DNA from: Nitrospinae bacterium CG11_big_fil_rev_8_21_14_0_20_45_15
Lineage (GTDB): Bacteria; Nitrospinota; Nitrospinia; Nitrospinales; VA-1
Length of the DNA stretch: 64,000 nucleotides
Assembly (NCBI GenBank): GCA_002787235.1
Contig: PCWG01000032.1
Coordinates: forward strand, 186,001-250,000
Direction: 5' to 3'
The notes beneath the pieces are model-generated. The model did no database searches. It had not been told where the DNA came from and saw only the letters and a list, made by a program, of their open reading frames with translations. Shown piece after piece: positions 46,872 through 49,733 of this stretch. The position numbers and the translations under genes are program-made. Position 1 is the stretch's first letter, and every line of letters begins with the position of its first letter.

Positions 46872-49058
46872 TCAGGAAGCCTGCAAGCTGGCTTGTTTCT
46901 GGCTTTCGACAAAAGTTTTCAATAACCCGACGTTTTGAGTGTGTCCCGACTTGTAGGCATGGATGTGGCCGCGAATGGGTTTGCCGAGCAAATAAAAATC
47001 GCCGATGATGTCGAGGATTTTGTGCCGGACAAACTCGTCGGGATAGCGTAGTTCTGTGTTCAAAACTTTTTTATCACCCAGCAAGATAAAATTATCCAGC
47101 TTGCCGCCACTGGCGAAACCCATCTTGGTGAGTTGAGCGACGTCTTCCATGAATCCGAAAGTACGTGCAGGGGCAATTTCTTTTTTAAAGTTATCGTGTC
47201 CGCTGAAAACAAAACTGTAATCCTGGATGCCAATGGGTTCGGGGTAATCCATGTGATAGCTGACAATAAAGCCATCGGCAGGTTCGATAGAAATAAAGGG
47301 TCCGCCGTTTTCTTTGGAGCCAAAGCTATAAGTTTTGTCGATGACGATTTCTTCGTTGAGTGCGTCTTGCTCCTCAAATTCTCCATCTTCAATCAATGAA
47401 CAAAAATCCTTGGCTGACCCGTCCATCACCGGGGCTTCGTCACCGATTTTTATCAGGAGATTGCTGATTCTGTACATGTGCAGACTGGCCATAATGTGTT
47501 CGATGGTGGCGACGGAAAAACGGCCTTTTCTCAAACAAGTGGAATAGTCGGTTGACTGCACATTTTGAAGATGCGCGGGAATGGTTTGACCGCTTGAAAT
47601 ATCTCCAAAAATGATCCCGCTGTTGGGCGGCAAGGGTTGTAAAATGAGGCCGGTCTTGATGCCGGAATGCAACCCGCTACCGCAAAGCACCATACTGCGT
47701 TTTAAAGTGCGTTGCAGTAATTGACCGGTTGGTTGTTTCTGCGATGGAACGGGCAGGCGAATGCCGTGTTCGCGGAGTTTTTCGGCAAATTTCTTCTTGC
47801 CAGCCTTCAGCGATTTGCGTGTTTTTTCCGAATCCCAGCCATTGTTCCTCAACTGATGAATGATGAATTGTTTTTCCCATTCGGGTTCGTTGCTACTTTG
47901 CTCGTTGGAATCTTTGAATATTTTGGCATCCCATACCCGTGTCGATTGTCTTATTTCGGGCGGGAGATCTCTCAATACGATCGTTTCACGAGAGGTAGAG
48001 GCAATGATTATTTTATCCAGAATAGAGCGCAATTCTTTAACATTCCCCGGCCAATCGTAATTGCAGAGGGTAGAATATACTTTTTCGTCGATTTTGGGAA
48101 CGTGAACTCCCATTTTCTGCGCGTAAGCCGCCAGAAATTCCTTCACCATAGAGGGGATGTTCATTGCGTAATCTCTTAGAGGAGGAACGCAAACGGAGGA
48201 TTCTTTGAAACGCTCAAGAAGTGTTTTGTTGAAACTGCCCTCGTTGGCAAGCTCTTCCAAATTTTTGGAAGAAGCCGCATAAATCCGTGCGGCTATGGTC
48301 GTGGTATCTGCCGAGGCCAGTCTCTTTTGAATACCTGCTGACAACGCATCGATATTAGAAAGGAAAACGACTTTATTTTCGGAATTTACTGTCGTATCCA
48401 AAGTCTTGTCCGCGGTTACATTCTCATTCGATGAGCCAAATAAAATGGATTCGATGTTCTCCGATTTTCGAATTTTACAATTCAACTTGATAAACGGAAG
48501 ACGGTTTTCCTGACTTTGCTGATGAATGATTTGCGCGATGAATTCTTTTCCCGTTCCCGGTTCGCCAAGGACGAGCACAGGTGCAGATTGCTCGGAAAGT
48601 TGTTTTGCTCGCTCCCGGATTTCTACCATGGCATCAAAACCCAGCGGCAAACTGGTGTTGCCAAAAAGATCACCGGCGACAGTGGCTTGTTTTTTTTGAT
48701 GAAGGGCCGCTTTCACCGATTGAGTGATGTGTTCCAGTGAAAAGGGTTTTTCAATGAAATCAAAGGCCCCCAGCTTGGTAGCCTGCACTGCGGTGTCGAT
48801 GGTGCCGTGCCCGGAAATGATCAAGACTTCGATTTCGGGATGAAATGTTTTGACCGATTTCAGAACTTCGATGCCATCCATGCCGGGTAGCCAGATATCC
48901 AGGATCAAAAGATCAGGCGGGTCCGATTGGATTTTTTCGAGCGCGTCGAGTCCGTCGCCTGTTGAGTCTACTTCGTAGCCCTCATCGGATAGAATATTTT
49001 TAAGGGACGCGGCGATATTGGTTTCGTCTTCAACGATCAGGATGCGTTCTTTTTGCAT
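46872..49058 (-). CDS. lpxC: Response regulator - degenerate NtrC-type AAA+ - LpxC fusion protein
   Basis: 728 residues from ATG 49058. Residues 1-125 are a receiver (ILIVEDE, acceptor Asp 54 in LLILDIW, KPF). About 135-370 is an NtrC-like AAA+ domain: Walker A GEPGTGKE (165-172) is intact, but GAFTGA is replaced by unrelated residues after ESILFGSS, and Walker B has lost its acidic pair (VVFLSNI, 230-236). A Fis-like helix-turn-helix follows (about 397-434). From about 448 to 720 it is a full LpxC: IEHIMASLH (His 521), VRHKILDIIGD (His 679, Asp 683), SGH (His 706), PVMDGSA, ARTFGF. LpxC commits UDP-acyl-GlcNAc to lipid A. The fusion suggests lipid A synthesis tied to a phosphorelay. Confidence 0.92.
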   Translation of the reverse strand: MQKERILIVEDETNIAASLKNILSDEGYEVDSTGDGLDALEKIQSDPPDLLILDIWLPGMDGIEVLKSVKTFHPEIEVLIISGHGTIDTAVQATKLGAFDFIEKPFSLEHITQSVKAALHQKKQATVAGDLFGNTSLPLGFDAMVEIRERAKQLSEQSAPVLVLGEPGTGKEFIAQIIHQQSQENRLPFIKLNCKIRKSENIESILFGSSNENVTADKTLDTTVNSENKVVFLSNIDALSAGIQKRLASADTTTIAARIYAASSKNLEELANEGSFNKTLLERFKESSVCVPPLRDYAMNIPSMVKEFLAAYAQKMGVHVPKIDEKVYSTLCNYDWPGNVKELRSILDKIIIASTSRETIVLRDLPPEIRQSTRVWDAKIFKDSNEQSSNEPEWEKQFIIHQLRNNGWDSEKTRKSLKAGKKKFAEKLREHGIRLPVPSQKQPTGQLLQRTLKRSMVLCGSGLHSGIKTGLILQPLPPNSGIIFGDISSGQTIPAHLQNVQSTDYSTCLRKGRFSVATIEHIMASLHMYRISNLLIKIGDEAPVMDGSAKDFCSLIEDGEFEEQDALNEEIVIDKTYSFGSKENGGPFISIEPADGFIVSYHMDYPEPIGIQDYSFVFSGHDNFKKEIAPARTFGFMEDVAQLTKMGFASGGKLDNFILLGDKKVLNTELRYPDEFVRHKILDIIGDFYLLGKPIRGHIHAYKSGHTQNVGLLKTFVESQKQASLQAS

Positions 49059-49088
49059 GGCAATATCCAAGTATTATTGATCCCCTTA

Positions 49089-49733
49089 TTATAACAGGGG
49101 TTGAGCTTTATAAAAGTCCATGTAGAAGATTTTTTGCCCAAGTTTCAAAAAGTTCTTCTCATATTTGGTTTTAGGCAAATCGTTTCTTTCCGGCATAAAA
49201 GCACCCTCGGGTGCCGAATTGACCAAAGCAGGCTCTGCCGACAGGTACTCAAGCATTTCAACTGCATAGGGTTCGCAGTCGGTGGCAAGACGTAATCTGC
49301 CGTCCGCACACAATTTGCCCGACAGCATTTGGATAAATTCAGGTTTGATCAGTCGTCTTTTAGCGTGTCGTTTCTTTGGCCAGGGATCTGGAAAGTTGAT
49401 ATAAATTTCTGCAAGTTCTCCCTCACCAAAAATTCTGGGGATTCTTTCTCGTGCATCTCCGTAAGCAACTCGGGCATTCATCAGTTTCAAATTGCCCAGG
49501 CGCGTTACCGTTTTACGGATGCCCTTGTGGTAGAAGTCGAGTCCGATAAAATTAGTTTTCGCTTGAGATGCCGCCATTTCGATAAGAAAATTTCCACCAC
49601 CAAAGCCAATTTCCAATTTGATGGGATAGTCTGACTTGAAAACATCGGGCCAGTCGGGGCGTTCTTCGACGTCAAAAAACAGGGGGCTGTTTTTTGCGAT
49701 TTCTTCAAAAGAAATCAGATTTTTGAATGACAT
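49089..49733 (-). CDS. trmB: tRNA (guanine-N7-)-methyltransferase
   Basis: SAM-dependent enzyme making m7G46 in tRNA; 214 residues. SAM-binding motif I is LEIGFGGGNFLIEMA (near residue 40), and the family signature YINFPDPWPKKRHAKRRLI follows near 110-128. The C-terminus MPERNDLPKTKYEKNFLKLGQKIFYM matches TrmB, where (T)KYE contacts substrate. The gene lies 30 bp upstream of the receiver-LpxC fusion on the same strand and may be co-transcribed with it. Confidence 0.95.
   Translation of the reverse strand: MSFKNLISFEEIAKNSPLFFDVEERPDWPDVFKSDYPIKLEIGFGGGNFLIEMAASQAKTNFIGLDFYHKGIRKTVTRLGNLKLMNARVAYGDARERIPRIFGEGELAEIYINFPDPWPKKRHAKRRLIKPEFIQMLSGKLCADGRLRLATDCEPYAVEMLEYLSAEPALVNSAPEGAFMPERNDLPKTKYEKNFLKLGQKIFYMDFYKAQPLL

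Follow-up and report, generated by a model that had tools for sequence, protein, structure and literature searches.

The window analyzed here, a 64,000-nucleotide stretch of a Nitrospinota genome, carries on its minus strand a single open frame at positions 46872 to 49058 that encodes a protein of 728 residues counted from the ATG. A TTG start at 49070, upstream of this ATG, is possible and would lengthen the product to 732 residues; residue numbers below are those of the 732-residue version unless stated otherwise, such that D58 corresponds to D54 from the ATG. As the preliminary description of this DNA had proposed, the frame joins a receiver (REC), an AAA+ domain, a helix-turn-helix (HTH)-like part, and an LpxC, an arrangement that Pfam and NCBIfam confirm. 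The features of the locus are as follows.

46872..49058, minus strand: receiver-AAA+-Fis-like segment-LpxC fusion gene, 728 residues from the ATG, TTG start at 49070 possible
48714..49043, minus strand: receiver domain, residues 10-119 (Pfam PF00072 Response_reg, E 3.8e-32)
48897..48899, minus strand: codon of the phospho-acceptor Asp, D58 (D54 from the ATG), Asp in 70/70 and 40/40 fused proteins
48201..48632, minus strand: degenerate NtrX-type AAA+ core, residues 147-290 (PF00158 Sigma54_activat, E 2e-21), so named from this match, motif counts, and a fold match to Brucella NtrX
48543..48566, minus strand: Walker A motif, GEPGTGKE; GxxGxGK kept by 47/49 AAA+-bearing fusions
47937..48161, minus strand: AAA+ lid domain, residues 304-378 (PF25601 AAA_lid_14, E 3e-17)
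47760..47882, minus strand: degenerate Fis-like HTH segment, about residues 397-437, gone from 21/49 AAA+-bearing relatives
46911..47714, minus strand: LpxC catalytic domain, residues 453-720 (PF03331, E 2.8e-83; TIGR00325 above its cut-off)
47496..47498, minus strand: zinc ligand His, H525, unchanged in 110/110
47022..47024, minus strand: zinc ligand His, H683, unchanged in 110/110
47010..47012, minus strand: zinc ligand Asp, D687, unchanged in 110/110
49089..49733, minus strand: trmB-like tRNA (m7G46) methyltransferase gene, upstream neighbor, named from its sequence

The trmB-like gene lies beside the fusion across the Nitrospinales; it is probably cotranscribed with the fusion and outside the mechanism proposed below.

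The C-terminal part scores 279.9 bits against the LpxC family PF03331 (cut-off 27) and 250.5 bits against the NCBIfam lpxC equivalog TIGR00325 (cut-off 187), and it contains the zinc ligands H525, H683, and D687 together with the catalytic residues E524 and H710. The receiver has its key residues as well, namely the acidic D15, the phospho-Asp D58, the switch residue S86, and K108. With a receiver covalently joined to an enzyme domain, the protein is by its layout an enzyme-output response regulator. Among the response-regulator equivalogs of NCBIfam, NtrX fits best, with the fusion scoring far below its cut-off (NF051870, 247.9 bits against 600). The AAA+ part reads, as previously described, FLSNI at Walker B where FLDEI is expected, and it lacks the GAFTGA loop. 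The Fis-like HTH of that description is present as a segment, with helices predicted at residues 391-405, 410-417, and 421-430 in our model, but it is degenerate: Pfam HTH_8 gave no match in the window's fusion protein, and only long NtrC-type models reach over this region.

By sequence, the C-terminal part is nearest to the solved structure of Pseudomonas LpxC and the N-terminal part to those of Brucella NtrX and Aquifex NtrC1; a Foldseek search with the predicted model ranked Brucella NtrX first and LpxC lower down. For the full-length protein, AlphaFold returned a pTM of 0.42 and a domain arrangement without confidence, the AAA+ fold itself being predicted with fair confidence.

The fusion is the only LpxC of its genome

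LpxC was found once in the source genome (3.37 Mb), as the fusion, and LpxB is present; the fusion must therefore supply the deacetylase step if lipid A is made, and we infer from its being the sole LpxC, alongside an LpxB, that the protein acts as a deacetylase. Its closest matches belong to Nitrospinaceae and other Nitrospinota. A scan of 77 Nitrospinota genomes detected LpxC in 65, with no stand-alone LpxC among them. The LpxC frame measures about 670-797 residues in 56 of these genomes and 460-514 residues in G010, G041, G067, and G068, the remaining copies being cut by contig ends. One LpxC-less genome, G014 (3.6 Mb, 96% complete), was considered as a case of real loss, which we rejected: the neighboring trmB is missing too, whereas LpxB and the kinase described below are present, so the absence of LpxC is probably an assembly gap.

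An assembly error or frameshift that fused two genes, which the preliminary description had named as a possible refutation, is vanishingly improbable: several assemblies are MAGs and nothing else speaks for it, and the frame is continuous, with graded divergence, across dozens of independent genomes of close and distant relatives, including the single-contig genomes G001, G003, and G025. The survey of LpxC homologs suggested at the same time found the fusion to be universal in related genomes.

Short receiver-LpxC forms lack the AAA+ domain

The genome scan also recovered REC-LpxC proteins of about 420-450 residues, devoid of an AAA+ domain, in two further classes, represented by L073 and L081. 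The former class is probably Binatia; UTPRO1, the group to which L073 belongs, is an order of Binatota (PMC8262859). About 106 of 111 LpxC matches in the class of L073 lie in frames of at least 410 residues, and about 35 of 40 in the class of L081 lie in frames of 430-496 residues. All 40 genes sampled, 20 per class, encode a receiver and an LpxC without an AAA+ domain.

Similar forms occur within the Nitrospinota. In a member of the window's own family (L231:1249-2730, G010:C134), the AAA+ and HTH parts are gone, leaving the receiver, a 43-residue linker, and LpxC. The AAA+ domain is likewise absent and the receiver kept in L045/L205 and L049, the last of which (L049:716-2257, G041) nevertheless has a Fis HTH (HTH_8, E 3e-4) between receiver and LpxC. 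Most AAA+-less forms have an unconserved linker of 19-54 residues, and in the AlphaFold model of a 419-residue REC-LpxC protein (pTM 0.75) this linker is disordered. Such linkers favor tethered inhibition with release, receiver dimerization, or membrane recruitment over a rigid lever; no rigid allosteric path is visible in the models, since the full-length arrangement is unconfident and the short-form linker disordered.

Selection falls on the receiver and the enzyme

Conserved residues were counted in 70 distinct fused proteins and in 40 additional REC-LpxC proteins. D58, S86, and K108 are present in 70/70 and D15 in 69, with a gap in the one remaining; in the additional set, D15, D58, and K108 are present in 40/40. 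The LpxC residues E524, H525, D550, T637, F638, H683, K684, D687, and H710 are found in 70/70 and 40/40. The intact phosphoacceptor and zinc ligands first noticed in the window's protein thus hold for all 110 fused proteins. As a separate observation, the switch residue S86 is Cys in three Binatia-class proteins (L259, L260, and L262).

The AAA+ domain shows a different pattern. Among the 49 AAA+-bearing fusions, Walker A is kept in 47 and GAFTGA in none; the second-position glutamate of Walker B is found in none, and both positions are acidic in at most four. In the Nitrospinales, the Walker B aspartate is mostly gone too, and deep-branching members read FLDD, which is an intermediate state. 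Of the 49, 28 keep the HTH-length segment and 21 have lost it. On the GAFTGA and Walker B motifs we rejected sigma-54 activation, bearing out the earlier suggestion that it was unlikely.

Among the fused Nitrospinales, mean pairwise identity is 0.76 for the receiver, 0.47 for the AAA+ core, and 0.79 for LpxC, whereas nine unfused regulators encoded beside lpxC give 0.63 for the receiver and 0.75 for the AAA+ core. Relative to the congener G002, dN/dS values (NG86, with dS partly saturated) are 0.016, 0.136, and 0.010 for the receiver, AAA+ core, and LpxC, respectively. This pattern is reversed with respect to the unfused regulators: selection has shifted from the AAA+ domain to the receiver and the enzyme. 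The preliminary description had suggested that the former activator was reused as a regulatory or oligomerization module; this part of the proposal is not supported in that form, since no other folded part of the protein changes as fast as the AAA+ domain, and several lineages have lost it entirely while keeping receiver and LpxC. The domain looks like a remnant in decay, at most a local scaffold.

An NtrY-type kinase gene adjoins the fusion in sister lineages

In deep-branching Nitrospinota (L072, L080, and L204-L207), a gene for a transmembrane NtrY-type histidine kinase lies immediately upstream of the fusion, and in the Binatia-class sample a kinase gene is found on the upstream side of REC-LpxC in 20/20. 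These kinases comprise NtrY_N, HAMP, PAS, HisKA, and HATPase domains, with PAS not called in L236. In the sample from the class of L081, no kinase gene was detected within about 1 kb upstream of REC-LpxC (0/20). Loci with this arrangement are L081, L240-L242, and L266-L285 (class of G082).

NtrY_N kinases were found in 64 of the 77 Nitrospinota genomes; with a single exception, each of the 64 has one. The kinase of the source genome (G000:C37:15320-17626, equivalent to L195:5321-7627) is encoded outside the window and has intact H-box (HEIKN) and GTGLGL motifs. In the Nitrospinales, the kinase gene is located away from the fusion and is still preceded by a DUF4390 (PF14334) gene. Such a gene stands before the kinase at L195:7605-8378 and equally in the deep-branching L205 (3527-4117) and L207 (8950-9645). 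An assignment of this preceding gene to the AMIN domain proved wrong; its product is a DUF4390 protein, possibly an accessory of the sensor. The DUF4390-kinase context of the source genome recurs in L205, L206, and L207, there followed by the fusion. L205 contains in one run an epimerase, DUF4390, the kinase, and REC-LpxC, followed by a gene named from its sequence as a probable site-2 protease, and it is this run that ties together the separated kinase and fusion of the Nitrospinales. Since the two are not adjacent there, the pairing of kinase and fusion in the source genome is drawn from these relatives, and the NtrY-type kinase is its presumptive partner.

Separate genes point to a probable origin of the fusion

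In a tree of LpxC domains, 42 fused proteins form one group (SH-aLRT 99) with a long stem relative to 33 unfused ones, a sample taken mostly from one phylum, and the Nitrospinota form one group inside the fused clade. A receiver tree (124 columns) does not reject a single fused clade (AU p 0.165), nor does it confirm a single origin. One fusion followed by repeated loss of the AAA+ domain is the simplest reading of these sequences, short of proof.

Among the best 30 stand-alone lpxC loci of the larger phylum to which G077 belongs, 11 have a gene for an NtrY-type kinase within about 1.5 kb. Where we extended such unfused loci (L220, L222, and L224-L230), they contain lpxC, the kinase, and then an NtrX-type sigma-54 regulator in which GAFTGA, Walker A, and Walker B are intact in eight cases, with L228 reading GSFTGA. 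By inference, these genomes are of the Desulfobacterota type. The unfused cluster of lpxC, NtrY kinase, and sigma-54 NtrX is presumably the precursor of the fusion, and the best reading is that a transcriptional regulator of lpxC became a tethered regulator of the LpxC enzyme. The cluster is also a candidate for a dedicated lpxC regulatory system in Desulfobacterota-type genomes in its own right.

Published work describes related arrangements. Rajeev et al. found lpxC to be the only target of the Desulfovibrio vulgaris regulator DVU2934, and in Syntrophobacter lpxC adjoins an operon orthologous to the DVU2934 operon (PMC3333781). In Rhodobacter sphaeroides, NtrYX lowers lpxC mRNA, acting indirectly (PMC7240162; reviewed in PMC12444477).

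Discussion

We propose that the receiver controls the deacetylase directly in this sole LpxC fused to an NtrX-type response regulator, a reading to which we assign a probability of roughly 0.74. It builds on the fusion itself, the conserved residues, the domain losses, the relaxed constraint on the AAA+ core, and the kinase linkage in sister lineages, all of which are read from the sequences. These suggest that a membrane sensor kinase switches an essential LpxC directly instead of via gene expression. The transmembrane NtrY-type histidine kinase would phosphorylate the receiver Asp54/58; phosphorylation would alter LpxC output in terms of activity, oligomeric state, membrane placement, or turnover; and the altered output would set flux into lipid A. 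Phosphorylation control of commitment to lipid A, as first suggested for this protein, remains the best reading, with the receiver as the conserved regulatory part.

In evolutionary terms, the ancestral regulator would have been a sigma-54 activator encoded beside lpxC. Fusion would have made transcriptional control redundant, so that the sigma-54 loop, Walker B, and the HTH were lost, as was the entire AAA+ domain in several lineages, whereas strong selection continued to act on receiver and enzyme. As for the direction of control, CheB-like response regulators have a receiver joined to an enzyme, and by analogy with CheB we lean toward phosphorylation relieving an inhibition of LpxC. What had been described from the window alone is extended here by the short forms without AAA+, the presumptive kinase partner of NtrY type, and the cluster of separate genes presumed to be the precursor.

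In the Nitrospinales form, the AAA+ domain might serve as a nucleotide-binding oligomerization scaffold that helps to couple the receiver to LpxC. We consider this possible but doubtful: retention of Walker A in 47/49, a dN/dS still below 1, and the fair confidence of the predicted fold agree with such a role, whereas the Walker B acids are lost in most fusions, constraint is strongly relaxed, and sister lineages dispense with the domain altogether.

The receiver might instead act mainly as a tether that docks LpxC on the membrane-bound kinase and thereby positions lipid A synthesis at the inner membrane, with phosphorylation altering placement or turnover more than catalysis. The flexible, unconserved linkers of most AAA+-less forms, disordered in the model, would suit such a role, and the Neisseria LapB homolog Ght places LpxC at the inner membrane (PMC12444477). 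Against it, the phospho-acceptor and the Lys are strictly conserved in 110/110 proteins, as expected if phosphorylation as such is important, and the class of L081 lacks a neighboring kinase gene; we consider this account unlikely.

It is improbable that the protein, besides being an enzyme, has remained a transcription factor, its NtrX part binding DNA, perhaps at sigma-70 promoters, with LpxC as a passenger or moonlighting partner. GAFTGA is lacking from alphaproteobacterial NtrX as well, which is nevertheless a DNA-binding regulator (PMC7240162), and we therefore did not accept the missing loop by itself as evidence that DNA binding is gone; an HTH-length segment in 28/49 AAA+-bearing fusions and the Fis HTH of L049 likewise favor a DNA-binding role. 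The case against it rests on the loss of HTH and AAA+: the HTH is missing from 21/49 AAA+-bearing relatives and from all examined REC-LpxC forms except L049, and these two parts are the least conserved. Moreover, our sequence check found that alphaproteobacterial NtrX retains the Walker B DE, which the fusions do not.

A neutral fusion, in which receiver and AAA+ are inactive baggage on an essential enzyme, would account for the decay of AAA+ and HTH, but it is very improbable given that constraint on the receiver almost equals that on LpxC (76% versus 79% identity; dN/dS 0.016), all phosphotransfer residues are kept, the receiver persists where AAA+ and HTH are gone, and the kinase is retained.

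The direct control favored here can be set against known systems. NtrX of NtrYX, the best fold match (Brucella NtrX; PDB 5m7n, 5m7o, and 5m7p), shares the layout of REC, AAA+, lid, and Fis-like segment, the NtrY_N domain of the partner kinase is found in our candidate kinase too, and the alphaproteobacterial form shares the loss of GAFTGA. The fusion differs in its equivalog score (248 against 600 bits), the loss of Walker B, a degenerate HTH, and an added C-terminal LpxC. Desulfovibrio DVU2934/DVU2931 is similar in that an NtrC-family regulator is dedicated to lpxC, with lpxC beside the regulator operon in Syntrophobacter, a likeness drawn from the publication rather than from the DVU2934 sequence; there the genes are separate and control is transcriptional. 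Stand-alone LpxC of E. coli, Pseudomonas, and Aquifex has the same catalytic fold and all active-site residues but no regulatory fusion, and in E. coli it is controlled by YejM-LapB-FtsH proteolysis. When we searched the source genome for LapB, the only match to its zinc ribbon was RadA, so control of the E. coli LapB type and the associated LpxC turnover are probably absent. Bifunctional LpxC/FabZ is also a natural LpxC fusion, but its partner is a metabolic enzyme and not a signaling domain; the corresponding model, NCBIfam NF009667, matches only the LpxC part of our protein. Finally, the enzyme fused here catalyzes a committed and essential biosynthetic step, whereas the output of the CheB type is a signaling or modification enzyme.

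Flux through LPS synthesis is controlled at the LpxC step, and the enzyme is a major target of antibiotics. Known controls of LpxC are proteolysis through LapB, FtsH, and YejM, binding of MurA in Pseudomonas, and transcription, of which proteolysis and partner binding act directly. The words "fusion" and "response regulator" are both absent from a review of lipid A regulation published in 2025. Our search of the open-access literature turned up no LpxC-receiver fusion, whose novelty is provisional with respect to subscription papers, including older response-regulator censuses. As a class, enzyme-output response regulators are known; for LpxC, regulation by a built-in receiver would be of a new kind.

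The fusion is found in a marine Nitrospinota bacterium and in two further bacterial classes. The series of forms runs from separate genes with an intact sigma-54 regulator, through a fusion with a decaying AAA+ domain, to a receiver and LpxC alone. Seldom is the conversion of a transcription factor into an enzyme regulator recorded so completely, and the series makes a prediction testable with purified protein. If the prediction is true, signals would act on LPS homeostasis directly through the enzyme, a route fixed across deep lineages, among them marine nitrite oxidizers.
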